This document shows positions 15,901-32,960 of a stretch of 64,000 nucleotides of DNA, piece after piece (position 1 is the first letter of the stretch; the number at the start of each line of letters is the position of its first letter). Under the pieces are notes generated by a model. That model worked only from the letters and a program-made list of their open reading frames with translations. It searched no databases and had not been told where the DNA came from. A program made the position numbers and the translations under genes. The DNA comes from Alphaproteobacteria bacterium (lineage in GTDB: Bacteria; Pseudomonadota; Alphaproteobacteria; Micavibrionales; Micavibrionaceae), in NCBI GenBank assembly GCA_021775955.1, contig JAJFGU010000024.1, positions 142,621 through 206,620 of the forward strand, in the 5' to 3' direction.

Positions 15901-16198
15901 GCATGGTGACCCAGGCCGTGTCATTGCAATATTGCGGCACGCGCCATTGTTCGTTGTAATAGACATCGCCCGCGCTGCCCACCGGATTGGTGCAGGCGGC
16001 ATGGGCAGATGCTGTTGCCAGAAGACAGAAGACAGAAAGCAGAAGGGTGCAAATTCCCCTCACCCGGCTTCGCCTTTGGCTCAGCCACCCTCTCCCCTGG
16101 GGAGAGGGATGCGCAGGGTTGGCGAGGCAAAGCCCGAGCCTTACCCGCAGCTGGGTGAGGGGAATAAAAATGCCAAAATGGTAAAACGCTCTTTTCAT
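12992..16198 (-). CDS. secreted LamG-domain surface protein (third gene of the fibre operon)
   Basis: 1068 residues from the ATG at 16198. A signal peptide core (GICTLLLSVFCLLATASAHA) cleaves before Cys69. Order: a CxNPxGxxGxxxYN...QYCN..W module; LamG/ConA-like domain 1 (GLVGHWKLDETSG ... RILSQKEI); LamG 2 (GLVGHWKLDEGTG ... RALAPTEI); two further Cys-YN-MQYCDG-W modules; LamG 3 (GLIAHWKFEDGTG ... RALSAAEI); and an unclassified beta-rich C-terminal domain of about 220 residues, absent from the paralogue. LamG domains usually bind glycans or proteins, so adhesion is inferred. The 46-residue n-region is encoded by an in-frame palindromic repeat. An alternative start at 16366, 7 bases after the previous stop and with AGGA, would add 56 residues of repeat-derived sequence. 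The start at 16198 matches the paralogue. Confidence 0.85.
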   Translation of the reverse strand: MKRAFYHFGIFIPLTQLRVRLGLCLANPAHPSPQGRGWLSQRRSRVRGICTLLLSVFCLLATASAHAACTNPVGSAGDVYYNEQWRVPQYCNDTAWVTMRPAFSGDALDNGLVGHWKLDETSGATINDSAGSNNGTWTDAVNNDVTEETANGYVDTSITFDGANDYVRVTNAASIDADNFTGMTVSAWIYPQTDGEAGEGRIVDKSDNSAARNGWRFTISDSGSCCNRLKFDGEFATTDMTRRTNTNAITLNEWQHVLATWDMGTDYTNVHIYVNGVEASYDFGVDGDGGFTDSQNLNIGNNTNGGRTFDGPIDDTRVYNRILSQKEITQLASMGPDPTRGLVGHWKLDEGTGTTAVDVGSATNDGTYTNSPTQSGGLIGGALEFSGDTGADATNDRVDIGDPGDGSLDFGSGSFSYGMWVYAPNNAGSFDMPWWKGGSSAGSAGYDMELGTGNWASGISDGDENEVLSFNGAPINDQWVHLFAVIDRSSDTHYVYVDGAEWDTNAMSGTFGSVSSSSPASIGALSTGQFPFLGKIDDVRVYDRALAPTEIAVIYGCTSPVGQRGAFVYNDDQNVMQYCDGEAWHAMGPNPGTGGAGCTNPARDEGVMIYNSDFNMMQYCDGAKWVAIGRFCSGGTTDGLIAHWKFEDGTGSTTANDYSANSNTGLLTSMDPATDWIPGIRGGALDFDGSDDKIIATDFADQLSAAAGTISFWANIDSIFPSNEYFFSASGANSHDPSIYRNTSDGKFRLVMNAVNSISTTTMAEDTWYHVAGTWDATTQRLYINGVEEDNDGVGTISPSGNTHLMGYNSGDNSNFRPDGMLDDMRVYDRALSAAEIAELSQASACPQTTADLDGAPISVARVQSQISTSTNPASVTLASTPVEGNLLVAIAAGRADSGDNSISGTGWTQHVYFDALSGNATNRRNLAIWSKIAGAAEPTAITTDISNGSSRLIVQEFAITGGTVAFDVTAETQGGTVDVTSISSGTTAASATADSLVITGLVTRDAPATAPTWTNGVANELGDTASGSIGIYTGYSHDTSAGAKESTASWTTARDASAAVVVFSITP
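16054..16164. repeat. palindromic element inside a coding region (copy A)
   Basis: Outer arms TTCCCCTCACCC (16054) and GGGTGAGGGGAA (16153-16164) are inverted repeats. The centre is CCCTCTCCCCTGGGGAGAGG, itself palindromic. Nearly identical to copy B at 18792-18900. On the minus strand it reads in frame as PLTQLRVRLG ... NPAHPSPQGRGWLS ... RSRVRG, extending the signal peptide of the LamG protein. This peptide is the familiar translation of a widespread bacterial interspersed repeat. Confidence 0.9.
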
Positions 16199-16202
16199 CC
16201 AC

Positions 16203-16366
16203 CTGCCGTCATCGCCTGAATTTGCATCGCCTGAATTTGCATCGCAAATTCTAGGGCGATCCATACCATACCCATGGATTCCCCTAGGATTTCCTCGCAG
16301 AAATCCGGGGAATGACGGAATATGAGTCCGTACAAAATTCACAAAATGTAAAAACGTTTTTTTCAT
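16203..16366. repeat. repeat mosaic between the two LamG genes
   Basis: Holds a 15-bp tandem duplication (CGCCTGAATTTGCAT twice, about 16213-16242) and an inverted pair TGGATTCCCCTAGGATTTCC / GAAATCCGGGGAATGACGG typical of interspersed repeats. The stretch is open on the minus strand and could be translated (DANSGDANSGDDGR) if the LamG gene starts at 16366. MKKTFLHFVNF at 16366 resembles MKRAFYHFGIF at 16198, hinting that the start region was duplicated. Confidence 0.6.
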
Positions 16367-16373
16367 TCTATTC

Positions 16374-18932
16374 CTACAAGCACCCGCCACCATTCGCCAA
16401 ATTGGTGATTTCATCGGCACCCAAAACCCGGTCGTAAACCCGCACATCGTCAATGATACCGTCGAAAGTTCTAACCGGTGTGTCTATATTGCCAATATAT
16501 AAATCCCACGTATCCGTAAAAGTTCCGACGCCGTCCGTAGCTGTAAGATAAGAAGGGACTTCCGTACCATCCACATATATTTTGGCATTGGTAGCAGTTG
16601 TCGATTTATCCCAGGTGACGAGTACATGCTGCCAGGTATTGAGAGTGATCACATTGTCTCCGGATCTATGATAAAGATCTGTTGTCGAAAATTCGCCGGT
16701 AAACGAAAGTCTGTTTGGTCCGCCGCCATCGCCGAGTTGAAATCTCCAACCATCATGTAATGCGCCGGTGTTATCTGATTTATCAACAATACGCCCCTCA
16801 CTATTTTCTCCGGTGGTTCTGGGGTATATCCAGGCAGAGGCCGTTAATCCGGTGAAATTGTCAGTATCAATAGCCGGATCGTTTGTAACAGTTACAGTAT
16901 CATCGCCGCCATCAAAATCCAGCGCACCGCTTTTGGTGCCCGTGACCCAGTCGCCGGGCGGGGACATATTGGTCAGTGTACCGTCATTGCCGTTGGCGGT
17001 GGCGTCAGCGGCGTTTGTACCGGAGGTTTCATCGAGTTTCCAATGCCCGACCAGTCCATTTGTCGGGCCGGAGCAGTACTTGCTGGCGCCCAGTGGCACC
17101 CAGGCCGCGCCATCGCAATATTGCATGATATTAAAATCGGCGTTGTAGATCATTGCGCCTTCGTCTTTTGTTGGGCTGGTGCAGCCCGCACCGCCCGCGC
17201 CGGGCACCGGACCCATGGCCTGCCACGCTTCCCCATCGCAATATTGCATGACGTTTTGATCGTCGTTATAGACAATCGCGCCACGTTGGCCCACCGGCGC
17301 GGTGCAGCCGGCAAGAACGGAAATTTCGGTAGGGCTCAGGACGCGGTCATAAACCCGCACATCATCGACGTAACCGTCCATGGGATGATTACCGCTATCT
17401 GTTGCGCCGATAGCGGCATTATTGGTGCTGGATAAAGAGCTGACTGTACCCGCAATGGCGGATGTCGGACCGGCTGTACCGTCCAGATAGGTGGTTACGA
17501 GATCAGCCGTACGGTCAACCGTAACAAACAAATGCACCCATTGGTTAAGCGGTGTTGAAGAAAATTGCGTACAGAAATTCTCATCACCGTCCCCCTGACA
17601 GGCATTCCAGCTTCCTGTGCCAAGTTCCATATCATACCCTGCGTTAAGGGCGCTTCCACCACCTTTGTACCATGGCATGTCCCATGTTCCAGCATCCGTG
17701 CGGCCGTAATACCACAGGCCGTAGCTGAAATCTCCGGTACCGAAATCGAGGCTGCCGTCGCCAGGATCGCCAATGTCAACGCGGTCATGGAGGGCGTCAT
17801 TGCCCATCTCGCCATCAAAATCGAGCGCGCCGTTAACAATGCCGCCTGCATAGTTTGGTGTGTTCTCATAGGTGCCATTATTGCCGCCTGAGCCGGAATC
17901 ATAGGCGGTGGTGCCTTGCCCTTCATCCAGTGGCCAATGCCCGACCAGGCCGCGGGAGGGGTCGGGGCCCATAGAGGCAAGCTGTGTCATTTCACCGGCG
18001 CTTAAAGAACGGTCATAAAGCCGGACATCGTCAATGAGACTGTCATGGAGCGTAGTGGCAAAGCTCGTGTCTCCACCGATATTAAAAGATTGCCCGGTAT
18101 CAGGGTTTTGAAGATCAAAGGTCATGGTTTTGGTGGTGCCGTCCTGCACCCCGTCGACATAAAAATGCAAATCGGGATAATTAACAACAGCCGCAACATG
18201 GTGCCATTGCCCGTCCGCAATAACGGTAGTGGCTGTAAAGATTTCGTCAGTGGCACCATCGCCATGCCTGAATCCAAGAATGCCATCGTCAAAGTGTAGG
18301 TCGTAATTTCTCTCAACATTTCCATCTGCTTCGTACACAATCTCGTTTTTCTCAGAATCCATCACGCTTGTCTTGATCCATGCGGCGATAGTCAGATGAT
18401 CGCCCAGCACTTCGAAAAGCGCCCTTTCTGCAACGCTGTCAAATTGTATGTGATGGGTAGCGCCATCAAAGTCGAACGCACCGCCGACAATTCCACCTGT
18501 AGGGAGCCAGGCCGCCACTCCTGCTACATCCCCGGTTGTGCTTCCGACAGAATCGCTTGCTATGATACCGGCACTTTCATCCAACTCCCAATGCCCGATC
18601 AGGCCTCTATCCAGTGCGTCGCCTCTGAAATTGCGGCGCATGGAAACCCAGCTCGTATCGTTGCAATATTGCGGCACGCGCCATTGCTCATTATAGCGTA
18701 TTTGCCCGGCTGTGCCGGTCGGGTTGGTGCAGGCGGCATTTGCGGGGCTGGAGGACAGAAGGAAGAAGCCGGAAATCAGAAGGGTAAAAACTCCCCTCAC
18801 CCGGCTTCGCCTATGGCTCAGCCACCCTCTCCCCTGGGGAGAGGGATGCGCAGGGTTGGTGAGGCTTTCGCCGAACCTTACCCGAAGCTGGGTGAGGGGA
18901 CTCATATATTTGCAAAAAAAGATAGATTGCAT
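16374..18932 (-). CDS. secreted LamG-domain surface protein (second gene of the fibre operon)
   Basis: 852 residues from the ATG at 18932, 10 bases after the stop of the giant fibre gene, with AGAG upstream. Signal peptide core VFTLLISGFFLLSSSPANAA with cleavage before Cys68. Order: CTNPTGTAG-YNEQW-QYCND module; LamG 1 (GLIGHWELDES ... RSLSAGEM); LamG 2 (GLVGHWPLDEGQG ... RVLSPTEI); two Cys-YN-MQYCDG-W modules; LamG 3 (GLVGHWKLDETSG ... RVLGADEI), ending in NGGGCL. It shares its whole architecture with the next gene, so the two are tandem duplicates. Likely exported to the periplasm or surface; a role with the fibre protein is inferred from operon structure. The even number of Cys suggests disulfides. 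Confidence 0.85.
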   Translation of the reverse strand: MQSIFFCKYMSPLTQLRVRFGESLTNPAHPSPQGRGWLSHRRSRVRGVFTLLISGFFLLSSSPANAACTNPTGTAGQIRYNEQWRVPQYCNDTSWVSMRRNFRGDALDRGLIGHWELDESAGIIASDSVGSTTGDVAGVAAWLPTGGIVGGAFDFDGATHHIQFDSVAERALFEVLGDHLTIAAWIKTSVMDSEKNEIVYEADGNVERNYDLHFDDGILGFRHGDGATDEIFTATTVIADGQWHHVAAVVNYPDLHFYVDGVQDGTTKTMTFDLQNPDTGQSFNIGGDTSFATTLHDSLIDDVRLYDRSLSAGEMTQLASMGPDPSRGLVGHWPLDEGQGTTAYDSGSGGNNGTYENTPNYAGGIVNGALDFDGEMGNDALHDRVDIGDPGDGSLDFGTGDFSYGLWYYGRTDAGTWDMPWYKGGGSALNAGYDMELGTGSWNACQGDGDENFCTQFSSTPLNQWVHLFVTVDRTADLVTTYLDGTAGPTSAIAGTVSSLSSTNNAAIGATDSGNHPMDGYVDDVRVYDRVLSPTEISVLAGCTAPVGQRGAIVYNDDQNVMQYCDGEAWQAMGPVPGAGGAGCTSPTKDEGAMIYNADFNIMQYCDGAAWVPLGASKYCSGPTNGLVGHWKLDETSGTNAADATANGNDGTLTNMSPPGDWVTGTKSGALDFDGGDDTVTVTNDPAIDTDNFTGLTASAWIYPRTTGENSEGRIVDKSDNTGALHDGWRFQLGDGGGPNRLSFTGEFSTTDLYHRSGDNVITLNTWQHVLVTWDKSTTATNAKIYVDGTEVPSYLTATDGVGTFTDTWDLYIGNIDTPVRTFDGIIDDVRVYDRVLGADEITNLANGGGCL
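18792..18900. repeat. palindromic element inside a coding region (copy B)
   Basis: Second copy of the element at 16054-16164, with the same arms (TCCCCTCACCC / GGGTGAGGGGA) and centre, differing at a modest number of bases. It also lies in frame in the n-region of a LamG protein signal peptide (SPLTQLRVRFGESLTNPAHP and onward). The shared position means it was present before the LamG genes duplicated, or was copied with them. Confidence 0.9.
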
Positions 18933-18942
18933 TCTTTGTTCT

Positions 18943-21900
18943 CTAACTCTGATCGCGTCTACGGGCTCTGAGTATACCACCAAAGACGAAGAAGAGTGAA
19001 GACATGCCGAGCATGAATAATGCGGCCACCATCACCCAGCTTTCCATCGAGGCTTTGCCGACATTGTTGCCTGCGGCCTTGTTGAGTAGCTCGACCTGTT
19101 TGGTCAGATTGCTCACCGCATCATGGACTTTGGCGGTTTCGGTCTTCATGGATGACAGTTCGGTGCGCAGGACGGCGTTTTCTTCGCGAAGCTCGTTGGT
19201 GGCCTCGATCAGCGGCGCGATAAAGCCCATGTAATTGACCGATTTGGTGCCCATTTCATCCTCGGCGGTTTTAACCAGCTCGGGGAAGGCTTTTTCAACC
19301 TCCTGCGCCATGACGCCAAGCTCGATGCGGTCCGTTGGGTCATCTTTCATCGTAAAGCTGTAAGTGTCGATCCGGCCCAGACGCTCGATAATGTCATCGG
19401 CATCCAACGGGGTGATGTTGTCTTTCAGGCGCCTGTCCGATACGTCGGTGATGGTGCCGGTAAATTCAATATCGCCCGTGACATCCAGTTCAACATCCGG
19501 ATCGGTCATGCCGATACCGACATGGTGGACGCCGGAATTGTAGTAAATGTCATCGCCCGTGCCAGCCGTCCAGACCGAGCTTCCGCCGCCGCCGATCAGG
19601 TCCTGCCATGAGCCGGCCTGATAGCCTTCAAATTTATCGCCTGTAGAGTTATAACGGATGAGGCCGTTTTCAAGTGTAGCAGGGCGCTCGCCATCGGTTC
19701 CCGCTGGAATACGCAGGGCCCCTGTGCCGGACATGAATATATCGTCATCGGCCCGGATTGTCATGGCTATGCTTCCTGCGCCGGCTTCCAGGACCCTGAA
19801 TTTCAGCTGGCCAGAATTGTCGGCGCCATCACGAGCGGCACCGATGTTGGCTATCTCATTTATGACGCCAGCATCATCCTGGATATTAAAGGCAATATCG
19901 GTTCCGAAGTCATCACCCATATTGGTGGTTTTGGTGGCAAGAATTCTTAAGGCAGACCACATAGCGTCTGTGGTTCTGTTGGTACGCTCCATTAAAGGCA
20001 GATCAGCAAAATCCGGTTCGGGCACATGGAGAAGACCTTCCGGCGTTGCCGTGCCGATACCAACGTTGCCCGCATTGTCGATTACGAACGGTGTGGTGTC
20101 GGGATCGGAATCCAGCACGACGAAAGAATCGCCGTTACCGGCGTTGATAATCCCCAGAGGCTCGGCTGTTGAGCCTGGCAATGTTGCAATATTAACAAGT
20201 GGTTGCCATGTTGTGCCGTTCGTGGATGCGGTGCTCTCTTCAAATACCATGCCAGCGGTATCATCAACTGTTAATTGCCACTGCCATGTTTGTTCATTCG
20301 CGCCGTTGGCGATTGTGCTGCCCGCCGTTGCTGCGGTGATGTCGGATAAAGCACCACTACCACCGCCGCCGATCATATTGGCCCAGGCACCGGCTTCGTA
20401 GCCTTCGAATTTACTGGTGGTCGAATTATAGCGGATCATACCGTTGGATAATGAGGCCGGTTGTTGCCCGGTTGTCCCTAGCGGCACGGTCAGCGCGCCG
20501 GTATTGGCGCCGGTCAGGACAAAATTCGTGCCGTCAAACACCACGCCGTCGCCGACATTGGCGCCGGAGGCCACAACATTATCCAGATCATCCAGCGTCA
20601 TGCCGGTTGGTGCTGGTGCGCCGGTGACGCTTTCGATGCTTGAGTTGGTGAATTCCAGAGCCGTCGCGCCGCTATTGACGCGGACAAACATACCGCCGCT
20701 GGTATACGCGCCCGGTGTGTCGGTGAGGCCGGTGAAGCTTCCGCCGCCGCCGATCAAATCGGCCCAGGCTCCGGCTTCGTAACCTTCGAATTTGTCGTTG
20801 TCGGAATTGTAGCGGATCAAACCGTTGGATAGCGATGCCGGACGCTCTGCGGTTGTGCCGAGGGGCAAGAGCAGGGCGTCCGTGTTGGCGCCGAGGTCAA
20901 GCGAGACGATTGGTGTAGTGCTGCCGATACCGATGTTGCCGCCATTTTGAATATATATATGATCTGTATTATTTGTGCCTATGCCCAGATCATCCCCGGC
21001 GCCAGTCCTGAGATAAGCTACAGCTGCGGCAGATGTTCCAAGTTTAATGTCTATAGCATCCGCATCGTTTCTGAGATGCAGCATTTGTTGCAGTGAGGTT
21101 CCTGTCTTAACATGCAAGGTTGAGGTCGGCGTAGTTTCTCCGATACCCATGCGCCCATTGGCATCATCCCAAACAAATGTTTCGTGCGTGCCGAAGGCAC
21201 CGCTGGAGTTAAACTGAATTTCCGAATTGGCGCCCGCCGCTGTGCCCCCGGCGGTAATAATGTCGGTCCATGCACCGGCTTGGTAGCCTTCGAATTTGCC
21301 GTTATCACTGTTATAGCGCAGCATACCGTTGGAAACGCCGGCCGGGCGTTGCGCGGTTGTGCCTAGCGGAACAATAAGCGCGTCGGTATTGCCGCCGGTT
21401 GTCACCCAGTTGGTGCCGTCAAAGACAACGCCGTCACCAAGATTGGCGCCTGCGGCGGCCACGTCATCAAGGTCGTCAAACACCATACCGGCCGGAGCAG
21501 GAGCACCAGTGACGGCTTCAACCGTAAGGTCGGTGAATTCCAGAGCGTTTTCAGCGCTGTTAATTCTTACATAGCGGCCACCGCTGCTGAATGCGCCCGG
21601 TGTGTCGGTGAGAGTAAGGAAGTCAACTGCGCCAGCCCCGACCAAATTCGCCCAGGCACCGGCTTCGTAGCCTTCGAATTTATCGTTGTCGGAATTGTAG
21701 CGAATCAAACCGTTTTCTAGAGCAACCGGGCGCTCGCCGTCGGTTCCCGCCGGAACGCGCAGCGCGCCGGTGCCGTACATGAATATGTCGCCTTTGTTGT
21801 CGATGCGCATGCGGTTTGCTTGTGACGTGCTGCCGTCCGGTACTGTCCAAAAATCAAATCGGCCCGGCGTGTCGTTCGCGCCCGGCGTACCATCGACCGA

Positions 21901-24900
21901 AACGATCATGGAAGCACTTTGTCTGTAGGCTGTTCCGTCATAGGACTGGAAGCCGTAATGGGCGATTTCATCTTGCGCGGCGACAATTGCTTTGGCCGCA
22001 TCGGTTTCGCCGGTGGCTTTTCTATATAGGAGTACAGCACCTTCTGCATTGGTGCCATTAAAGGACTCAACCGTTAATCCCGTGTCACTTAAATCGCCAG
22101 CCAGGTGCAGTATAGATATCGGCGTCGGCGTGCCAATACCGACATTGCCATCGCTTTTGATCACCATTTCTGGTGCGTCATCATTGTAATCGACAACACC
22201 GCCATCTTGAGCAACATGAAATTCCATACGGGCCGGCATATCACCATCGCCGGGCGTGTTGTCTACGATTGTAGAGATGATGGATGCCTCTTCCCAGGTG
22301 TCGCCGTCATATCCGAAGATACGAAATGTTCCCAGGAAATCATCGTTTTGAACAACGGTTGGTCCAGCCATCGTGCCGCGCGCCCTACGCAATCCGTAAT
22401 CCGGTTTATGGGGGTCCGCACTGTCACCATAGCTGTAAAGGTTCATATCGCCCGCGCCATCTTCACCTTCCATGACGAAAGTGCTCGCGGTGTCCTTAAT
22501 GTGGAGGCTTGCGGTTGGATCGGTTAAGCCGATCCCAACCTGTGGAGCTGTGCCGGAGTTGTAATAGATGTCGTCGAATGATCCGGCCGTCCAATGCCCG
22601 CCTTGACCGGTGGCGAAATTGATCCAGCCGCCATTTTCGTAGCCTTCGAATTTGGCGTTGTCACTATTGTAGCGGATCAAACCGTTGGACAGGGATGCCG
22701 GACGCTGCGCATCCGTTCCCAGCGGGACCAATAAGGCGTCGGTATTGGCGCCAAGATCAAGGGATACAATTGGGTCAACTGTACCGATCCCGACATTGCC
22801 TGCATCGGTAAGAGTCATATGCGGCGTTGCCAGAGAAGTTCCGCCTGTCAGTCTTAGGCTGCCGTCATCTTCCTGTCCGATTCCAGCCCAGTTCACGGTG
22901 CCGTCGGTATCAAGAGCGAACCATTGCTGGGCTTTTCCGCCCGTTCCCACATCCGCGGCAGAGGTTATGTATTCGTAAGAGTTGACTTGGGCGTGAACCT
23001 GCATCGTAACACTTGCATCATAAGGCGTATTCACACCGATTGCCATTTGACCGGTCGACGTATAGATAAAGTTCGCATCCGCGGCCATTGTGTTGCCGGA
23101 ATTAAATTGTATCCCGCGGTCGGGAGCAGCGGCGATGGACGCGCCGGTGAGGATATCCTGCCAGACACCGGCCTGAAACCCTTCGAAGCGGTTATTGTCG
23201 GAGTTATAACGCAGCATACCGTTATCGGGCACGGTCGGTCGTTCGGCGGTTGTTCCGGCGTGAATGTCGATAGCGCCGGTTCCATAGAACAAAAGATCGC
23301 CATCAGATGTTAGGCGCATGCGTTCAACGCTTGTTGTATCTGTCGCTTCGCGTGTGTCGAAGCGCAGGTGCGTCGGTAGGTTTTCATTGGCAGGTGTTGC
23401 CCCTGCATCTATGTACGCCAGTATCTGGGCGCCCCGCTCGTATTGTGTGCTATCCCAGGCATAGTAGCGAGGCCCACCAAGTACATCATTAGCTTGAACG
23501 ACGGCTTCCGCGCCTTCGGATCCGCGCGCAAAGCTGAAATCATAGTTGGCATCATCGGAAGTGTAGGCATAGTGCACTACTTCGTTGGTGCCGCCAGAAA
23601 TTGTCAGGATATCAGTTGGGTTTGCCGTGCCGATCCCGAGGTGGTGGTTTGTGTCATCCCAGACGAATGTCTCGTGCGTACCGAAGACGCCATTGGAATT
23701 GAACTGAATTTCTGAATTGACGCCTGCCGCTGTGCCGACTGCGGCTCCCGTTGTAAAGTCGGTCCAGGCACCGTTCTCGTAGCCTTCAAATTTGTCGCTG
23801 TCGGAATTGTAGCGGATCAGGCCGTTGGACAGCGATGCCGGACGCTCGGCGGTTGTTCCGAGCGGTGTCAAAAGCGCGTCGGTGCGGCCACCCAGATCGA
23901 GCGATACGATCGGAGATGTTGTGCCAAGCCCAAGACCTGCGCTGGTGTAAACAAAATTCGCATCCGCCGCGAGTGTGTTGCCGGAATTAAATTGTATCCC
24001 GCGATCTGGGGCGGCGGCGATGGACGCGCCGGTCAGGATGTCCTGCCACAAACCGGCCTGGAAGCCTTCAAAGCGGTTGTTGTCGGAATTATAACGCAGC
24101 ATGCCGTTATCGGGCACGGTCGGGCGCTCTGCGGTTGTACCGGCCATGATGTCAATCGCGCCGGTGCCTTTCAGGTAAACGTCGCCGGTATCGTACTCCA
24201 TACTCAGATGGCCCGTCCACGTTGCGCCGTCCCAGTATGCAAACAACATATCTTCACGCTCGCTTACTGTGGCGTAGGCGTCACCATAGGCTTCTATAGC
24301 CCAACCCTTGGCTTGGGCATCACCGACTGAGGCAGCGTCACCTGCTGTAAGAAGATGTAGGGCTGAGCCACCTGTCTCGTCTCCCTCTGCAACAAGTGAG
24401 CCCCAACCGGAACCATCGTAAATATGAAGGTCTATGGCCGGCGTTGTCGTGCCGATGCCGACATTACCATCACTGTCAATGCGCATGCGCTCGACCCATG
24501 ACGTGTCTGTGGCAGAACGTGTGTGAAAGCGCAGATGTGTCGGTATATCCTCGTCGGCAACGGTGGCACCTGTATCGACATACATCTCAAAACCGGCGGC
24601 TAGCTCATATTGTGTGCCATCCCATGCTCTTGCACGGAATCCGCCGAGTTTATCATCGGCAGCCACAGGGTTGGGGGCAGCCTCGGTATTGCGGGCTCTG
24701 AGAGTTTCGAAATCAGCGCCTTCATTGGCGGTGTCAGAGTATGAAATATTCTCTATTTCCGATCCGTCAGTGGAAACAACCGATAGAATGTTTGTTGGCG
24801 CCGTCGTGCCGATCCCAACTTGTGGCGCTGTGCCGGAGTTGTAATAGATGTCATCGAATGAGCCGGGTGTCCAGATGCCGCCACCGCCCGCGCCAGCTGT

Positions 24901-27900
24901 AACAAAATCCGTCCATGCACCGGCCTCATAACCTTCGAATTTGGCGTTGTCACTGTTGTAGCGGATCAAACCGTTGGATAAAGAGGCCGGGCGCTCCGCG
25001 ACCGTGCCGAGCGGTAACAGGAGGGCGTCTGTATTGGCGCCGAGGTCGAGTGATACGATTGGATCAACTGTCCCTATGCCAACATTGCCCGTTCTTTCCA
25101 GGGTCATTATCTGCGATGTGGTTGCAATGTCGCGGAAAGTAAGATCATTGTTGCTTGCGTCATAGAACATTTCCACGCCATCGGCACCAAGCCCTTCTCC
25201 GATCCTTAGGGAAGAGTCCTGGCTGTCATCAACCGTATCGGGTGCAATAATCACGACCGGGCTGCGGGTCAGGCCTCCGGAAACATGTAAATCTACAGTG
25301 GGGGTTGCCGTGCCGATCCCAACTTGTGGCGCTGTGCCGGAATTGTAATAGATGTCATCATCAGAGCCGGGTGTCCAGATGCCACCACCGCCCGCGCCGG
25401 TGGTGACGAAGTCGGCCCAGTCGCCATCTTCATAGCCTTCGAATTTGGCGTTGTCGGAGTTGTAGCGGATCAAACCGTTGGACAAAGAGGCTGGACGCTG
25501 CACGTTCGTGCCGAGTGGCACAAGCAGGGCATCTGTGCGGCCGCCAAGGTCGAGTGAGACAACCGGCGATGTTGTGCCGAGGCCTAATCCAGCGCTGGTG
25601 TATACAAAGTTTGCATCCGCGGCCATCGTGTTGCCGGAGTTGAACTGAATCCCGCGATCGGGTGCGGCGGCGATGGACGCGCCGGTCAGGATGTCCTGCC
25701 AGATACCGGCCTGGAAGCCTTCAAAGCGGTTGTTGTCGGAATTGTAACGCAGCATGCCGTTATCGGGTGAAACCGGGCGCTCGGCGGTTGTGCCAGCGTT
25801 AATGTCGATCGCGCCGGTCCCCCTTAGATAAAGATCACCTGTGTCATATTCCAGCAAAAGTTGCTGCGAGGCTGTGGCACCATTCCAGTATGACATGAAA
25901 AAATCGTTTTGTTCAGAGGCGGTGGGGTGGGTATCACCTCTTGCACCTAGAGACCAGCCAGTCGCATTCGCAGAAAGAATCTGACTCGCGCCATCTCCTG
26001 AGGTTAGTAACTCTAGTATTGTGTTGCCGCTTTCATCACCTTCAAGGATAACAATGCTGCTGGCTGCGTCATCATATATATGCAGATCACTGGCCGGTGA
26101 TGCTGTGCCGATACCAATATCGCCGCCTGCTTCGATGCGCATACGCTCATCAGTTGTGGCCCGGCCTCCGGTGTAAAAACGCATATCGGCAGAGGCATCG
26201 GCTGCGATCAGGTCAAGACCTGCCGCAACGCCGCCATAAGCACTGGAGGCTGCATCGCTGGCCAAAACGGTGAAGCGGTCGGCAAAATGCGCACCGAGAA
26301 GTGTGCTGTTGTCCGGCCATGCCCCAGTACCACCTTCGGATGTTGCGGACACAACCCATGTTCCGGCGCGTGCATTGGCGCTGTCCGTCGTGTTTTCGAT
26401 GAAAGTAAAGGTGCCAACATCGCCGTCACGTTTGATGTGAAGGTCGGTAATTGGGTCAGTAATGCCGATACCGACGAAAGGGTTGGTGCCGGAATCGTAA
26501 TAAATGTCGTTATCGGAGCCGCGGGTCCAGATACCGCCCCCGCCGCCGGTGGTCACAAAGTCGGTCCATGCACCAGCCTCATAGCCTTCGAATTTGGCGT
26601 TGTCGGAGTTGTAGCGGACCAAACCGTTGGACAATGATGCCGGGCGCTCCGCCGTTGTGCCGAGCGGGAGGCCTACAGCATCTGTGTTGGCGCCGAGATC
26701 TAATGATACGATGGGGTTGGCCGTGCCGACACCCATGAGGCCCGCATTGGTGAAGACAAAATTGGTGTTCGTGTCTATGACTCCATTGGAGTTGAATAAA
26801 ATTTCACGATCAAGTCCCGGCACTGTGTTGTTGGCGACATCGGAAGCAAGGAAGCAATTGTTCCCGGCCGCGTCACAATAATTGGTTGCGCCGAGATCGC
26901 CGGTAACATCAACTTCGAGATCCTGCTCTCCGCCGGTGGTCAGAGTTGCCGAACCGACCGCGATGCCGCCAAGATTAAGGGCGGTCAGCGTATTGGCATT
27001 ATTGCCGATGGTTAAGACCTCTTCGAGATTCTGGTCGTCAAAAGCGCTGGCCGAAACATATTCAAGACCGGTCGCGCCTGCATTGACACGCAGAAAGTCG
27101 AGGGCGACACCGGTGTAATCCGCAGGTGTGTCATTCAGATCGAGGAAAGTAATGCCGCCAGCCCCGGAGGTAATAATGTCCGACCATGCCCCGCCTTGGC
27201 GGGCTTCGTATTTGTTTGTGACTGTGTTGTAGCGCATCATGCCGTCAACTGGTGCGGCCGGTCGGTTGGTACCGTCACCGCGCGGGAAGAGGATCGCGTC
27301 CGTGCCCGTGACGTCGAGTGCGGCTAACGGCGTGTTTGTACCAATACCCATCAGTCCGGTGCTGGTGAAGACGAAATTGGCATCTGTGCCTGCGACACCG
27401 TTCGAATTAAACAGCACTTCACGATCAAGCCCCGGCACGGTGTTGTTGGCGACATCGGTGGCAAGAAAACAGTTGTTGCCGTCAGCATCGCAGTAATTGG
27501 TGGCACCGATGTCGCCGGTCACATCCACTTCGAGGGTCTGGTCGCCGGCGCTTACGGTTGTGTCGCCGATAAGTAGTTGTCCAGCTGCGGTGACGCGCAT
27601 TTTCTCTGTGCCTGCCGTCGCAACGCCGATAGAATCGGCGGCGGCCCGGAACAGGCCAGTGGTCGCGGAGTTTGTAAAGGTAAGAGAAGGGTCAGCGGCG
27701 CTGCCGTCCTTAAGTTGTGCATCATTGGTAAAGGTTGCGATTCCGGTCACGCCCAGTGAACCACCGACTGTCGTGGCGCCGCTAATTGCAGCCGTGCCTG
27801 TGACATCCAAAGTCTGCGCCGGGGCGGCATTGCCAATGCCTATTCTTCCGGTGCTGGTAAAGACAAGGTTTGTGTCCGTGCCAAGCACGCCGCCGGAATT

Positions 27901-30900
27901 AAAGATCATCTCACGGTCCAGGCCCGGCGCACCGGTGGAGCCACCAGCAATATCGGCAGCGGTAAAACAGGTGGCGAGATTTTCATCACAATATTTAAAG
28001 GTGCCAACGCGCGGGTCGAGGCCGGTTCCGGTTTCACCGAAGAGTGTGTCCCCTATATTAATGTAGTTGCTCGTAGCGGCCAGCGGTACATCGGCCTGGC
28101 GACCGATGATGATATTGCTAGCACCCGTCGTTAAAGTGGCAGCTGCATCCGTGCCGATAATCGTATTGTCGTCAGCGCCGGTCAGAATATTCTCGGCAGC
28201 TTGACGGCCAATAAAGACATTCTCTGATACATCGCTGGAAGCGGCTACGCCTTCTCCGGCAGCATAGCCCAAGACCGTATTCCAACGGCCGGTTTCATTG
28301 TTGTTGAGGGTAAAACCGCCAAGCGCAGTATTTTGTGCGCCGGAAACAAGATCGCCCATCGCGGCTGAGCCAATGGCCGTGTTGTAGTTTCCTGATGCGC
28401 TATTGTTTAGGGCACCGTCCCCAACAGCGACCATGTCAGAAGCTGTTGTAATTGCATCGCCGGCTGAAGCGCCTACTACGACGTTTCTGGCGCCACTTAG
28501 AGTCTCGTTCCCGCCCGAAATAAAGACATTGCTGTTGCTGCTAAATACAAGGCGGTTATTGGAGGTAAAGGTAAAGCCTGGCTCCGCATGGAAGGCGCCG
28601 TTTGAATTAAAGATGACTTCGCGGTGGCTGCCGGGTGCATTGCCGTTATTGGCGACGGAGGCGGCCGTAAAACAGTTATTGCCAAGCTCATCACAATATT
28701 GAATGGAGCCGGTATTGCCTTCCACATCAAGGAAGAGCTGCCCGCCTGTGCCGGTATCGGGTGATGTTTCATTAATGCCGACATAGCCGTTGCTCGTAAC
28801 TCTTAACCGCTCGGCGCCATTTGTAGAAACGCCTATCGTATCGGCGCCGATAGAATAAAGTCCGGTATTGGTATCATTGATAAAGCTGAGGCTTGGTATT
28901 CCGGCTGTGCCGTTGCCCGCACGCAAAATATCTGTGCGCGTCGTGCCGGTGACATGAAGCGCTTCGCTTGGTGCGGTATTGCCGATTCCGACTTGCGGCG
29001 TGCCGGAGTTGTAATAGATGTCGGCGCCAGGGCCTTGCGTCCACAGTCCGGCGCTGCCGCCGAGAATGTCAGCCGCGGTAAAACAGTTTGTAAGGTCGGA
29101 TTCGCAAAACTGGTTGGCGCCCAGCAGGTCGAAGTCTTCGGCGTCCTGTCCTTGGGCGTCATTGCCTTCGGTCAAAACATCATCAAGATTTTGACCGCCG
29201 CCGCCGCCGCCGGAGCCCAAATCGGTTTCACAAGACCAGCCGACGCCATTGGTCCATTCCAGTTTTTGCGTGGCCGTATTACAGTTGAGTGGTGGGCCGA
29301 GCTGATCGCCATTTACAACCATAGTGCTGCCGGCTGTAACATTTCCCGCAGTGGCAACAATATTGCCTGTTGTCGATGTAATTCCGGTTCCGGCCGTGAT
29401 GGTTGTTGTGATATCGGCGCTTCCTAAAACGTCCAGCGCATCGTCAGGAGCGGCCACGCCAATACCGATACGATCATTGGCAAGATCGCCGTAAAGCGTG
29501 TTGCCTATATTAAGGTAGTCACTGGTTGTGGCCAGAGGCACATCCGGTGGGGTAGCGCTGGAGCCGATGACGATATTATTGTCTCCAGTTGCCAAAGTCG
29601 GCGCGCCGCCATTGCCGATGACTGTATTATAAGTGCCTGTTGTTAATGCATTGCCTGCGCTACCGCCAACGATTGTATTGTTGTCCCCTGTGACCAGGGA
29701 GCCTGCGCCGCCACCGACCAGGATCGAACCGCCCATGGTGTTGTCTGTGTTCAAGACGGTGATGCCGTCGATTTTATAATAACTATCGGCGTCAATCGCA
29801 CCGGCGACATCCAGAGCGTCATTGGGGTTGGCAACGCCAATTCCGACATCGCCGTCATTTTGAACCAGTAATAAAGAAGTTGTGCCGCTGTCTCTTATAT
29901 GTAGGGCGTTCTCGGTGTCGTCAGCTGTGGCACCTTGCACCAGTAATGTGTTGGTTGCAACCGCTGCCGTTCCGATACCGACAATGTCCGGGCCGATATT
30001 GATCTCTACACCCGTACCGCCATTGGCATCAAGCTGCAGCACACCTGCATTGCCAAGCACTTGTGAGCCGGAGCCCCAGACAATAGATTGACCATCGGTC
30101 ATCATCGCATTGCCCGAGAGCTCTATATTGCCGGTGACGTCGAGGGCTTCCGAAGGATTATCGTTAAGGACACCAACCTGTCCGGTCCCACCACTGCTAA
30201 AGTGAATGCGGTTGCCTCCGAGGTCGGTCCATAGGTTGGCTCCGGGTGCACCGTCGGCAACGGATACCCAGCCATTGGGATTATCACAAATTTGTAGGTG
30301 GTCAGGGTCGGACAATGTGTTGACCCTTAAGAGTCCGTGATTGGCTCCATTACAGGTTGTTAATACGCCCTGATCAGGAAACAACATGGAGGCTGCGCCG
30401 AGTTGCAGGGCTGCGGTGCTGGTGGTCAGGTCAATCCCGGCGGTAAAAGAAGCGCCGCCTGTGACTTCGATGTCTTTGGCGATCTCTGCTGTATCCGGCG
30501 CGCCGGTTTTGATGTTCCAAAGACCGCCCGTAGCCGCTGCCGCGCCCTGATAATTAAATTCCATGACAAGATCGTCACCACCTCTTGTGATAAGCCCGGG
30601 ATGGTCGGTACAGGTGGCCTGGAAGGTTCTGTCCGGTCCGGCGGAGATAATGGCTATCATCGTATAGCCCGGGTCATCAATGCCGTTACCGGCCAGACGT
30701 GTTTGGCCAACGCCGCCACAACCGGCGTCATCGACGATTGGGCCCGCATCCCATACGCAGTATCCGTAATCCGAGCTCCACGGGTCCTGTCTGTTGGTGC
30801 CGATGGTGGCGGGCAGTGTACCACCGCCTGTCAGGCCCGCGATATTGGCAGCGTATTCCAGGGGTTCAACATAACCGTCAGAATCACAATCACCACTCAG

Positions 30901-31125
30901 GGCCTGCGCCGCTGATTCCAGCATGGCAAGCTTGGCGGCGATAGACATATGGCTTTCGGCCTGGGTGCGGCGGTTAACTTCGACCATCGTGCTTAAGGGG
31001 CCACGCATAGTGGCCATGATCCCGGCACCCAGAACACCGACGATCGCGACAGCGCCGAACAATGTAAAAAAGACATTGCCTCGTTCTGATCGCCTGCTCC
31101 TTAGCGTCGTTTTATGGTCCCTCAT
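18943..31125 (-). CDS. giant tail-fibre-like protein with pseudopilin-like N-terminus and peptidase S74 chaperone
   Basis: About 4060 residues from the ATG at 31125; 31161 is an alternative. (1) Basic start, then a membrane helix (NVFFTLFGAVAIVGVLGAGI), then a head with DPWSSDYGYCVWD and IISAGPDRTF, resembling GspG-type pseudopilins. (2) YadA-head-like stretches (TGDNNTIVGGSAGNALTTGT, WNTVLGYAAG). (3) Many phage-fibre-style VGIGTxxPxxxLHV and IYYNSGTAPQVGIG units, five CDxxxxxCF motifs, and 14 RYNSxxxKFEGYxxGxW modules. (4) Near residue 3890 a peptidase S74 intramolecular chaperone (VSDRRLKDNI; Ser-Lys dyad), which trimerises and self-cleaves in known members. (5) A coiled coil and a C-terminal helix (VMVAALFMLGMSSLFFVFGG) with a basic end. 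Probably a trimeric envelope fibre; its target is unknown. First gene of a three-gene operon. Confidence 0.88.
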   Translation of the reverse strand: MRDHKTTLRSRRSERGNVFFTLFGAVAIVGVLGAGIMATMRGPLSTMVEVNRRTQAESHMSIAAKLAMLESAAQALSGDCDSDGYVEPLEYAANIAGLTGGGTLPATIGTNRQDPWSSDYGYCVWDAGPIVDDAGCGGVGQTRLAGNGIDDPGYTMIAIISAGPDRTFQATCTDHPGLITRGGDDLVMEFNYQGAAAATGGLWNIKTGAPDTAEIAKDIEVTGGASFTAGIDLTTSTAALQLGAASMLFPDQGVLTTCNGANHGLLRVNTLSDPDHLQICDNPNGWVSVADGAPGANLWTDLGGNRIHFSSGGTGQVGVLNDNPSEALDVTGNIELSGNAMMTDGQSIVWGSGSQVLGNAGVLQLDANGGTGVEINIGPDIVGIGTAAVATNTLLVQGATADDTENALHIRDSGTTSLLLVQNDGDVGIGVANPNDALDVAGAIDADSYYKIDGITVLNTDNTMGGSILVGGGAGSLVTGDNNTIVGGSAGNALTTGTYNTVIGNGGAPTLATGDNNIVIGSSATPPDVPLATTSDYLNIGNTLYGDLANDRIGIGVAAPDDALDVLGSADITTTITAGTGITSTTGNIVATAGNVTAGSTMVVNGDQLGPPLNCNTATQKLEWTNGVGWSCETDLGSGGGGGGQNLDDVLTEGNDAQGQDAEDFDLLGANQFCESDLTNCFTAADILGGSAGLWTQGPGADIYYNSGTPQVGIGNTAPSEALHVTGTTRTDILRAGNGTAGIPSLSFINDTNTGLYSIGADTIGVSTNGAERLRVTSNGYVGINETSPDTGTGGQLFLDVEGNTGSIQYCDELGNNCFTAASVANNGNAPGSHREVIFNSNGAFHAEPGFTFTSNNRLVFSSNSNVFISGGNETLSGARNVVVGASAGDAITTASDMVAVGDGALNNSASGNYNTAIGSAAMGDLVSGAQNTALGGFTLNNNETGRWNTVLGYAAGEGVAASSDVSENVFIGRQAAENILTGADDNTIIGTDAAATLTTGASNIIIGRQADVPLAATSNYINIGDTLFGETGTGLDPRVGTFKYCDENLATCFTAADIAGGSTGAPGLDREMIFNSGGVLGTDTNLVFTSTGRIGIGNAAPAQTLDVTGTAAISGATTVGGSLGVTGIATFTNDAQLKDGSAADPSLTFTNSATTGLFRAAADSIGVATAGTEKMRVTAAGQLLIGDTTVSAGDQTLEVDVTGDIGATNYCDADGNNCFLATDVANNTVPGLDREVLFNSNGVAGTDANFVFTSTGLMGIGTNTPLAALDVTGTDAILFPRGDGTNRPAAPVDGMMRYNTVTNKYEARQGGAWSDIITSGAGGITFLDLNDTPADYTGVALDFLRVNAGATGLEYVSASAFDDQNLEEVLTIGNNANTLTALNLGGIAVGSATLTTGGEQDLEVDVTGDLGATNYCDAAGNNCFLASDVANNTVPGLDREILFNSNGVIDTNTNFVFTNAGLMGVGTANPIVSLDLGANTDAVGLPLGTTAERPASLSNGLVRYNSDNAKFEGYEAGAWTDFVTTGGGGGIWTRGSDNDIYYDSGTNPFVGIGITDPITDLHIKRDGDVGTFTFIENTTDSANARAGTWVVSATSEGGTGAWPDNSTLLGAHFADRFTVLASDAASSAYGGVAAGLDLIAADASADMRFYTGGRATTDERMRIEAGGDIGIGTASPASDLHIYDDAASSIVILEGDESGNTILELLTSGDGASQILSANATGWSLGARGDTHPTASEQNDFFMSYWNGATASQQLLLEYDTGDLYLRGTGAIDINAGTTAERPVSPDNGMLRYNSDNNRFEGFQAGIWQDILTGASIAAAPDRGIQFNSGNTMAADANFVYTSAGLGLGTTSPVVSLDLGGRTDALLVPLGTNVQRPASLSNGLIRYNSDNAKFEGYEDGDWADFVTTGAGGGGIWTPGSDDDIYYNSGTAPQVGIGTATPTVDLHVSGGLTRSPVVIIAPDTVDDSQDSSLRIGEGLGADGVEMFYDASNNDLTFRDIATTSQIMTLERTGNVGIGTVDPIVSLDLGANTDALLLPLGTVAERPASLSNGLIRYNSDNAKFEGYEAGAWTDFVTAGAGGGGIWTPGSFDDIYYNSGTAPQVGIGTTAPTNILSVVSTDGSEIENISYSDTANEGADFETLRARNTEAAPNPVAADDKLGGFRARAWDGTQYELAAGFEMYVDTGATVADEDIPTHLRFHTRSATDTSWVERMRIDSDGNVGIGTTTPAIDLHIYDGSGWGSLVAEGDETGGSALHLLTAGDAASVGDAQAKGWAIEAYGDAYATVSEREDMLFAYWDGATWTGHLSMEYDTGDVYLKGTGAIDIMAGTTAERPTVPDNGMLRYNSDNNRFEGFQAGLWQDILTGASIAAAPDRGIQFNSGNTLAADANFVYTSAGLGLGTTSPIVSLDLGGRTDALLTPLGTTAERPASLSNGLIRYNSDSDKFEGYENGAWTDFTTGAAVGTAAGVNSEIQFNSNGVFGTHETFVWDDTNHHLGIGTANPTDILTISGGTNEVVHYAYTSDDANYDFSFARGSEGAEAVVQANDVLGGPRYYAWDSTQYERGAQILAYIDAGATPANENLPTHLRFDTREATDTTSVERMRLTSDGDLLFYGTGAIDIHAGTTAERPTVPDNGMLRYNSDNNRFEGFQAGVWQDILTGASIAAAPDRGIQFNSGNTMAADANFIYTSTGQMAIGVNTPYDASVTMQVHAQVNSYEYITSAADVGTGGKAQQWFALDTDGTVNWAGIGQEDDGSLRLTGGTSLATPHMTLTDAGNVGIGTVDPIVSLDLGANTDALLVPLGTDAQRPASLSNGLIRYNSDNAKFEGYENGGWINFATGQGGHWTAGSFDDIYYNSGTAPQVGIGLTDPTASLHIKDTASTFVMEGEDGAGDMNLYSYGDSADPHKPDYGLRRARGTMAGPTVVQNDDFLGTFRIFGYDGDTWEEASIISTIVDNTPGDGDMPARMEFHVAQDGGVVDYNDDAPEMVIKSDGNVGIGTPTPISILHLAGDLSDTGLTVESFNGTNAEGAVLLYRKATGETDAAKAIVAAQDEIAHYGFQSYDGTAYRQSASMIVSVDGTPGANDTPGRFDFWTVPDGSTSQANRMRIDNKGDIFMYGTGALRVPAGTDGERPVALENGLIRYNSDNDKFEGYEAGAWANLVGAGAVDFLTLTDTPGAFSSGGRYVRINSAENALEFTDLTVEAVTGAPAPAGMVFDDLDDVAAAGANLGDGVVFDGTNWVTTGGNTDALIVPLGTTAQRPAGVSNGMLRYNSDNGKFEGYQAGAWTDIITAGGTAAGANSEIQFNSSGAFGTHETFVWDDANGRMGIGETTPTSTLHVKTGTSLQQMLHLRNDADAIDIKLGTSAAAVAYLRTGAGDDLGIGTNNTDHIYIQNGGNIGIGSTTPIVSLDLGANTDALLLPLGTTAERPASLSNGLIRYNSDNDKFEGYEAGAWADLIGGGGSFTGLTDTPGAYTSGGMFVRVNSGATALEFTNSSIESVTGAPAPTGMTLDDLDNVVASGANVGDGVVFDGTNFVLTGANTGALTVPLGTTGQQPASLSNGMIRYNSTTSKFEGYEAGAWANMIGGGGSGALSDITAATAGSTIANGANEQTWQWQLTVDDTAGMVFEESTASTNGTTWQPLVNIATLPGSTAEPLGIINAGNGDSFVVLDSDPDTTPFVIDNAGNVGIGTATPEGLLHVPEPDFADLPLMERTNRTTDAMWSALRILATKTTNMGDDFGTDIAFNIQDDAGVINEIANIGAARDGADNSGQLKFRVLEAGAGSIAMTIRADDDIFMSGTGALRIPAGTDGERPATLENGLIRYNSTGDKFEGYQAGSWQDLIGGGGSSVWTAGTGDDIYYNSGVHHVGIGMTDPDVELDVTGDIEFTGTITDVSDRRLKDNITPLDADDIIERLGRIDTYSFTMKDDPTDRIELGVMAQEVEKAFPELVKTAEDEMGTKSVNYMGFIAPLIEATNELREENAVLRTELSSMKTETAKVHDAVSNLTKQVELLNKAAGNNVGKASMESWVMVAALFMLGMSSLFFVFGGILRARRRDQS
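19620..27270 (-). repeat. 14-copy coding repeat array in the giant fibre gene
   Basis: Fourteen copies of a roughly 35-residue module (ERPASLSNGLIRYNSDNAKF then EGYEAGAW) centre near 19640, 20400, 20790, 21300, 21680, 22650, 23190, 23790, 24070, 24940, 25440, 25725, 26590 and 27205. Two subtypes alternate in the middle: SLSNGLIRYNSDNAKFEGYE and VPDNGMLRYNSDNNRFEGFQ. The second is followed by an almost invariant QDILTGASIAAAPDRGIQF block (near 23090-23180, 23990-24080 and 25620-25720). Near-identity of these blocks at DNA level suggests recent duplication or gene conversion. Confidence 0.85.
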
Positions 31126-31167
31126 TCTTATTTTGGCTCCGTCTACGCGTTTCCTGCACAATTATTA

Positions 31168-31598: not shown

Positions 31599-32960
31599 TT
31601 AGGCAGCCAGCGGGACATCAAACTGATTGAGCGCAGCCTTTTGTCTGGCGCGCAAAGATTCAAGGTCAAAATCGGCAATGAGCTCATTAAAAACCCGGTA
31701 CCAGTTAATTTCAGCCTTGAGGTGTAAAAAGACAGAGCCCAGACCCAGGGCTGCGCGGTCCATAAACACAAATTCACGCGGAACGGAAATTCCTCCCGTG
31801 CTTTTATTGAGTTCACGCAGCTTTTGATGGACTTTTTCAGCGGTTTCGCGGCCGTAAACCCCGCCGGAAACCTCGCCTATGGGACGAATTTTATCTTCCA
31901 TTACAGGGCCATAGAGGAAATTCGCCCAGATATTGAGAGTTTCAATTTGATCCTTGCTTAAATCGTGAAAACCCCATGTCTCATAGGCGTGAACCGCCAG
32001 GGCGATATCGTCATTGGTCAAGGCATTGTAAAGATCAATCACACCGCCGATAAATTCCGGCTGAAAAACGCGGACGCAGCCGAAATCGAGCAGATTTATA
32101 GAATTATCGCGGCGCACCGTGTAATTACCCAGATGCGGGTCACCGTGAATAATGCCGTAGTGGTATAGCGGCACATACCAGGCCCGGAACATATTCATCG
32201 CCAGTTCGTTGCGCTGATCCGGGTGGGCATCGACAAAATTTAGAATCTTTTCACCCTCCAGCCATGTACCGGTCAGGAGCCTGCGCGTTGACAGATTGTC
32301 GATAATTTCAGGGACATGGACGTTCGGCTCGTCCCGTAACATATAGGTGTAGAGCTTGCTATGTTGCGCCTCAAGCCCGTAATCGAGCTCTTCAAAAAGC
32401 CGCGCGGAGAGCTCGTCATGGATTTGTCCGGTCTTGATAGCTTTGTCATAGCGTTCATAGAGCGAAAAAATGATCTTGAGCTGGCTTAAATCCGTGCTGA
32501 TGGCCGATTGCATGTCGGGGTATTGCAGCTTGCAGGCGAGCATCTGTCCGTCATGCGCGGTGGCCTTGTGGACCTGGCCGAGACTGGCGGCTGCCGCGGC
32601 TTCCTTTTCAAAGGAGGCGAATTTTGAGCCCCAGTCCGGCCCCAGCTCCGCCTTCATCCGGCGCCTGACAAAGGGCCAGCCCATAGACGGGGCGTTGGCC
32701 TGTAGCTCCTGAAAAGCACGGGCATATTCCGGTGGCAGGGCTTCAGGGATAGTGGCCAGAATCTGCCCGACCTTCATCAGTGGCCCTTTGAGGTTACCCA
32801 GTGCCTGCATAAGTTGCTCGGCATGATCTTCGCGTTCAATCCTCAGTCCGAGATATTTTTCTCCGGCCAGCCGGGCGGCCAGTCCCGCCATAGTGCCCGA
32901 TACTTTTCCGTATCGCCTGATTTTTCCGCCGACTGAGTTTTGATCCAGCTTGTCTTCCAT
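31599..32960 (-). CDS. ABC1/UbiB (AarF) atypical kinase family protein
   Basis: 453 residues. The family KxGQ motif is LKGPLMKVGQILATIPEALP. The Ala-rich nucleotide loop is EAAAAASLGQVHKA (in place of the canonical Gly-rich loop). The catalytic segment is GIIHGDPHLGNYTVR and the metal-binding segment NLLDFGCVRV. Bacterial UbiB-type proteins act as ATPases in ubiquinone synthesis or lipid handling. This member lacks the C-terminal membrane helices of UbiB itself, so it is better described as an ABC1-family protein. It stands alone on the minus strand, divergent from the IcmL-like gene. Confidence 0.88.
   Translation of the reverse strand: MEDKLDQNSVGGKIRRYGKVSGTMAGLAARLAGEKYLGLRIEREDHAEQLMQALGNLKGPLMKVGQILATIPEALPPEYARAFQELQANAPSMGWPFVRRRMKAELGPDWGSKFASFEKEAAAAASLGQVHKATAHDGQMLACKLQYPDMQSAISTDLSQLKIIFSLYERYDKAIKTGQIHDELSARLFEELDYGLEAQHSKLYTYMLRDEPNVHVPEIIDNLSTRRLLTGTWLEGEKILNFVDAHPDQRNELAMNMFRAWYVPLYHYGIIHGDPHLGNYTVRRDNSINLLDFGCVRVFQPEFIGGVIDLYNALTNDDIALAVHAYETWGFHDLSKDQIETLNIWANFLYGPVMEDKIRPIGEVSGGVYGRETAEKVHQKLRELNKSTGGISVPREFVFMDRAALGLGSVFLHLKAEINWYRVFNELIADFDLESLRARQKAALNQFDVPLAA

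Follow-up and report, generated by a model that had tools for sequence, protein, structure and literature searches.

The giant fibre gene and its product

A window of 64,000 nucleotides (the whole stretch of DNA analysed, positions 142,621 to 206,620 of contig JAJFGU010000024.1, assembly GCA_021775955.1) from an alphaproteobacterium of the Micavibrionaceae, with a source genome of 2.32 Mb in 25 contigs, contains a giant gene whose product is likely an adhesive fibre of the cell surface. An initial annotation of the sequence had placed a single protein of roughly 4060 residues at 18943..31125; these coordinates are correct, and the coding strand is the minus strand, where one open frame spans the interval, the plus-strand reading containing many stops. 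The frame runs for 4,072 codons from a TTG at 31161 and for 4,060 from an ATG at 31125, with the stop ending at 18943. The ATG is the more likely start and is the one used in the predicted protein, P0004; all residue numbers given here are counted from TTG 31161. The features of the gene are as follows.

18943..31125, minus strand: giant fibre gene, 4,060 aa from ATG 31125, frame open from TTG 31161
31006..31080, minus strand: predicted N-terminal membrane helix, residues 28-52 (GNVFFTLFGAVAIVGVLGAGIMATM), preceded by basic residues (hydropathy, model helix)
30502..31089, minus strand: pilin-like head without Glu5, residues 25-220
19531..30501, minus strand: shaft of phage-tail-fibre-like units, residues 221-3877 (PHROG matches, RYNS motif)
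19270..19440, minus strand: peptidase S74 domain, residues 3908-3964, with Ser3908-Lys3913 dyad (Pfam PF13884)
19063..19233, minus strand: long helix, predicted coiled coil, residues 3977-4033 (model helix 100-156)
18967..19041, minus strand: predicted C-terminal membrane helix, residues 4041-4065 (hydropathy, model helix 163-192)

The sequence observations of the initial annotation held up, with one exception, and its interpretation is supported in part. Only two segments of the protein, residues ~27-53 and ~4041-4066, reach the hydropathy threshold used for a membrane helix (1.6 over 19 residues), in line with the predicted helix near each terminus. The phage-fibre units of the shaft are represented by PHROG phage families matching up to 16 repeated stretches and by 13 occurrences of the RYNS motif. 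The YadA-like head repeats that had also been described were not recovered by Pfam in the giant fibre at E<=1; many of its relatives carry PF05658, the YadA head repeat.

The S74 domain and the C-terminal membrane tail

Behind the shaft, the domain order is peptidase S74, long helix and membrane segment. PF13884 is matched with 57.9 bits against a curated cut-off of 22, and the motif SDRRLK at residues 3908-3913 supplies the Ser-x4-Lys dyad (S3908/K3913) expected of this family. The dyad is invariant in the 31 rows of a tail alignment (A2), built from 31 of 39 selected tails; the eight left out by hand (P0023, P0038, P0041, P0053, P0057, P0062, P0068 and P0081) include divergent S74 parts and one tail without the helix. 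The predicted self-cleavage site directly precedes Ser3908 (bases 19441/19440). A 57-residue helix in the structure model agrees with the coiled coil that the initial annotation had placed after S74; the models of both head and tail are of monomers.

The C-terminal helix is followed by a basic tail ending in RARRRDQS, and the tail has a net charge of at least +2 in 137 of the 139 relatives with such a helix. Of 93 S74-bearing head proteins, 82 likewise have a net positive flank ahead of the head helix. Both ends of the chain are therefore predicted to lie in the cytoplasm, which would place the fibre outside the inner membrane. The closest relative of the S74 part by profile and by structure is human MYRF, and the best structural match is the MYRF ICA domain. 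Two control S74 proteins without the helix from the same genome, one of them cut at its N-terminal side by a contig end, show a clearer preference for phage fibres than the S74 part of the giant fibre does.

By eye, differing S74 subtypes precede a similar membrane tail in P0023, P0014, P0020, P0041, P0053 and P0056, as if the S74 subtypes had been swapped while the membrane tail was retained.

Coupling of the C-terminal helix to S74

The family was collected by its head alone, giving 79 proteins that span 2,242-6,936 residues, a range bounded by the length window of the search; three further head-found proteins with cut starts were left out, and shorter head-bearing frames also exist. The tips are exchangeable, some head proteins ending in S74 and others in C-type lectin or other domains instead. 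A C-terminal membrane helix is present in 62 of the 64 proteins with S74 and in none of the 15 without it, some of which may be cut at contig ends. Because of this possibility the comparison was redone on frames with a stop codon in named genomes, where the raw counts were 12/15 with S74 versus 1/33 without. Two of these 33 frames (L125 and L128) proved S74-positive by Pfam and were moved, and six were dropped on inspection by eye for odd, frame-shifted or masked tails (L057, L070, L082, L094 and two in L100). The corrected table has the helix in 12/17 frames with S74 versus 1/25 without (Fisher p 6e-6, ignoring shared ancestry). A wider protein set, biased in that it was partly collected by tail queries, gives 99/102 versus 0/15. 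Within the family, the C-terminal membrane helix thus occurs only behind S74, as a near-strict rule. The catalytic dyad is present in 152/152 S74 proteins with the helix and in 89/89 without it, counts in which protein and locus sets overlap.

The pilin-like head

The initial annotation had compared the N terminus to GspG-type pseudopilins lacking the canonical Glu5. The DPW...Y.Y and SAGPD segments on which it drew are both found and are conserved across the family, and Glu is indeed missing from position +5 in all 76 heads examined (Thr 45, Ala 20, Met 8, Val 2, Leu 1). Positions G-1, N+1, F+7, A+9 and G+14 of the head helix are invariant in the same 76, the Gly at -1 occupying the class III signal position of type IV pilins. 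A pilin-like fold is predicted from the structure model, and the structures that the head matched include the calcium-bound GspG-type structure 5o2y. A Pfam scan of the window's head returned no families, and no pilin family was found among the 29 members of the head alignment (A1, 29 of 55 selected diverse heads). The N_methyl matches in the source genome do not include the giant fibre gene, and the T2SSG profile matches only 2/142 genomes of the order, the source genome not being one of them. On the missing Glu5 and the Pfam results, we reject a place for the head among the canonical pilins or in T2SSG.

A link from the head to Glu5 pilins through intermediate sequences was sought in 17 stretches, chosen around remote matches in the class and around a second small family; 14 of them held 16 proteins matching the head profile (L151, L154 and L157 gave no match, and the L158 protein is cut at its start). 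It could not be made, the canonical Glu5 signal being seen by eye in none of the 16. The second small family, also without Glu5, comprises proteins of ~230-285 residues that have a membrane helix of similar GN type and match nothing in Pfam, and occurs in several genomes of the order (e.g., L162 1468-2226 on G000:C6 and L161 1047-1745). The head also contains an EF-hand-loop-like DxDxDG....E stretch (DCDSDGYVEPLE; residues 91-102, window 30856-30891) that is common in the family; an EF-hand was weakly matched by one of the 29 head members.

Portability and distribution

The family recurs across the order, with the head in 90/142 genomes and 37/54 genera. In a class-wide sample, head matches occur in 15/385 genomes, four of them of the same family (the source genome included) and the remainder with E values from 4e-26 to 1e-3. 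A head 67% identical to that of the giant fibre lies in Micavibrio sp. DHS20C02 (record BQJE01000006), and the source organism is probably a relative of Micavibrio. The named predator Micavibrio aeruginosavorus EPB has a 2,716-aa orthologue in the family (P0050). Heads are also found in Stappia, Stella, Nitratireductor, Microvirga and Hyphomicrobium records, which weakens the idea that the head is a predator-only part.

The S74-helix tail is not confined to pilin-like heads. In G102, a genome of the same genus, the giant gene is directly followed by a gene for a 1,045-residue fibre that has a Sec-type start and an S74-helix tail, and nine proteins combine a clear Sec start with such a tail by eye (P0091, P0125, P0134, P0138, P0147, P0148, P0149, P0164 and P0186). 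In these Sec-start fibres the C-terminal helix would be the only anchor, and the cut would therefore free the fibre wholly. The 665-residue P0208 joins a canonical N_methyl start to an S74-helix tail of like kind.

Long proteins with canonical GFTLIELM prepilin starts were also observed in L006 (8983-11178, G000:C19), L046, L047 and L052. The L006 protein ends in S74 without a membrane helix, and partial views of the other three show, by eye, fibre-like GIGT or 'YC/FC' motifs.

Genomic setting

The following neighbours lie on the same strand as the giant fibre gene.

16374..18983, minus strand: first downstream gene, three Laminin_G_3 stretches, Sec-type N-terminus by eye, start uncertain
12992..16453, minus strand: second downstream Laminin_G_3 gene
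31599..32960, minus strand: upstream neighbour, ABC1 (UbiB-type) kinase gene (Pfam)

A Laminin_G_3 gene lies near the end of the fibre gene in four of nine downstream stretches from relatives (L131, L134, L135 and L136), where adjacent genes also bear LVIVD or Lcl_C domains. The upstream neighbours are conserved among 77 sequences (76 loci and the window itself), an ABC1 kinase being found in 29, a DotI-like gene in 25 and GapR in 20. The ABC1 kinase is a matter of chromosomal synteny and not part of the fibre machine. From this gene order we infer that the fibre gene is probably an old chromosomal gene rather than part of a prophage.

Several further observations were made around these genes. 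DotI/IcmL-like genes lie at 33088-33762 in the window and at G000:C3:194574-195107. Another S74 protein gene on G000:C3 (L005 8724-14021), cut by the contig end, adjoins genes with T4SS_TraI, T2SSE and TcpQ domains. A 107-base palindromic element is present in two copies with 91.6% identity, one (18793-18899) in the interval from the giant gene to the signal-peptide portion of the first Laminin_G_3 gene and the other (16056-16162) in the 5' part of the second; the former folds far better than its shuffles (z -6.6), and in L131 a relative of the element (80.6%) stands where the Sec-type fibre gene starts. A serine-recombinase-like gene precedes the head gene by 0.2-1.8 kb in four records (L076, L077, L089 and L112, from Hyphomicrobium, Nitratireductor, Stappia and Stella), suggesting mobile or invertible contexts there; the Pfam Resolvase check of these genes covered L089 alone.

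A proposed tether-and-release model and its alternatives

We favour, with rather more confidence than doubt, a model in which the gene encodes a giant fibre with a pilin-like head on an N-terminal helix, whose chains trimerise with both ends in the inner membrane and are released by self-cleavage at Ser3908. Sec would insert both ends of each chain into the inner membrane, and the chains, kept next to one another by their tails, would come together via S74 and the following helix and likely trimerise. The shafts would then fold and S74 would cut before Ser3908, freeing the far end of the fibre and leaving the chaperone behind in the membrane, in a fragment of about 165 residues. Self-cleavage at the serine has been published for Bd3182, one of the MAT fibres of Bdellovibrio bacteriovorus (PMC10769870), and self-cleavage of MYRF is described as freeing an N-terminal trimer while the C-terminal part stays in the membrane (PMC3742443, PMC3828593). 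If cutting by S74 is restricted to the assembled trimer, as it is in phage fibres and MYRF, only finished fibres would be released, and tether and release likely act as an assembly checkpoint. More tentatively, the N-terminal head might then anchor the fibre, perhaps via a pilus-like filament passing a secretin, and the freed tip might bind surfaces such as other cells.

Two results weigh against this reading. In the raw-sequence comparison of the S74 part, a phage fibre scores slightly above MYRF, which also weakens the view of MYRF as its uniquely closest relative. The corrected table also contains one helix without S74 (L103), borderline and lacking a basic tail.

Compatible with tether and release is a display route in which the head is incorporated as a minor pilin at the tip of a type IV-like filament, as proposed for CofB and TcpB, and the growing filament drives the folded fibre through a secretin; we regard this as possible but on the doubtful side. 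The head is pilin-like, the canonical prepilin P0208 bears the same S74-helix tail, and the source genome has 11 N_methyl matches (E<=1), six T2SSE ATPases, three candidate prepilin peptidases and four secretin matches, one of them in a 57-aa frame. TcpB homotrimers have been proposed to cross the secretin at the pilus tip (PMC9565799), and modular pilins are described as likely tip-exposed (PMC8179133). Against this stand the complete lack of Glu5 and the invariant Asn at +1 in the heads, the scarcity of T2SSG and of PilO (the latter matched in 1/142 genomes), and the fact that none of the nine window neighbours scanned is a filament gene. The PilO count also makes co-occurrence with type IVa pili uninformative as an argument. 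By analogy with TcpB, the secretin route at a pilus tip is the most likely way across the outer membrane among the routes considered.

The C-terminal helix could instead be a lasting second anchor, holding the fibre as a periplasmic loop or arch with S74 only trimerising or inactive. An invariant catalytic dyad speaks against this, and a plain anchor would occur with any tip and not require S74, whereas the helix is almost missing without it; we therefore consider the absence of release improbable.

It is also quite unlikely that, instead of being a free adhesin, the fibre is the contact device of a type IVB (Dot/Icm-like) secretion system. Such a link is suggested by the DotI/IcmL-like gene beyond the kinase gene, with similar genes in 25 of the 77 sequences, by the second S74 gene adjoining type IVB-like genes on C3, and by matches to DotI, a type IVB secretion marker, in 138/142 genomes of the order and 0/14 control genomes. 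The system is near-universal, yet the head is found in only 90 of the 142 genomes, and the ABC1 kinase, GapR and acetyl-CoA synthetase neighbours are housekeeping genes whose order may be merely ancestral.

Although S74, helix and membrane segment stand in the same order as in MYRF, signalling by a retained C-terminal fragment that reports fibre assembly to the cell is very improbable, as only ~8 residues follow the helix and no signalling domain is present. A prophage tail fibre caught in the chromosome, as the PHROG tail-fibre matches might suggest, is ruled out for practical purposes by the membrane helices and pilin-like head, by the conserved chromosomal place beside core genes in many species, and by the scan of nine window neighbours, none of which is a phage structural gene.

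Returning to tether and release, a wider proposition, for and against which we find the case evenly balanced, is that the S74-coiled coil-membrane helix tail is a portable device that tethers giant chains in the inner membrane, forces their trimerisation and releases finished fibres only. In an order of predatory or predator-related bacteria it would serve fibres with pilin-like heads, Sec signals or prepilin starts alike, and it would be the prokaryotic counterpart of the MYRF mechanism and perhaps its forerunner. We know of no account of how bacteria assemble, across two membranes, trimeric fibres of thousands of residues. If the model is true, self-cleavage would be the quality gate at the inner membrane for such fibres, and MYRF would gain a bacterial precedent. 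Little is known of how predatory and epibiotic bacteria attach to other cells; the family offers a testable answer, with a member in M. aeruginosavorus EPB, an organism at hand.

Comparison with known systems

The S74 intramolecular chaperones of phages are shed after the cut and are not known to carry a membrane segment. By profile and fold, the giant fibre has the same domain as these chaperones (3gw6, the T5 L-shaped fibre 4uw8 and the neck appendage 3gud). CofB and TcpB, trimeric minor pilins of a few hundred residues, are not known to have S74 or a membrane tether, unlike the giant fibre. Their resemblance lies in a pilin-like domain that leads into a trimeric, beta-rich tip module on a type IVb pilus (PMC9565799).

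Modular type IV pilins are closer, with an N-terminal pilin module as part of a larger, likely tip-located binding protein, and they include a pilin plus S74 architecture (IPR012902-IPR030392) whose second module is mentioned as a predicted peptidase. They were found by the canonical pilin signature, unlike the giant fibre head, and the most extreme multi-domain example named, at 860 residues, is far below the giant fibre in size; the available portions of that paper do not mention a C-terminal membrane tether (PMC8179133).

The MAT fibres of Bdellovibrio share with the giant fibre family a phage-fibre-like shaft in a predator, variable tips and a division into S74 and non-S74 subgroups (PMC10769870). 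As described there, they are set apart by their start, a signal peptide with a conserved ~130-aa beta-rich domain rather than a pilin-like head on a membrane helix, and by size, Bd3182 having at least 922 residues by construct numbering against 4,060. Scaled roughly from Bd3182, at 550 A for about 760 residues, the giant fibre would be some 260 nm long. The main text of the MAT paper does not contain the term 'transmembrane', whereas in the giant fibre S74 is followed by a membrane helix.

The order of S74, helix and membrane segment is like that of MYRF and MrfA, described as having a trimerising S74/ICA domain, a leucine-zipper helix and a membrane segment (PMC3742443, PMC3828593); in one of these papers it is asked outright why MYRF is membrane-bound. 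MYRF is described there as a eukaryotic transcription factor with a DNA-binding domain and one membrane segment, without a pilin-like head or fibre. A Pfam scan of the giant fibre found no DNA-binding transcription-factor domain.

The literature searched, mostly non-subscription papers, yielded no description of an S74 fibre that has both a pilin-like head and a membrane helix at its C terminus, which is weak evidence of absence. Relatives already in print are the Bdellovibrio MAT fibres and the modular pilins with S74; what appears to be new is the tethered S74 tail in bacteria, the coupling of the helix to S74, the portability of the tail and the giant size of the fibres.
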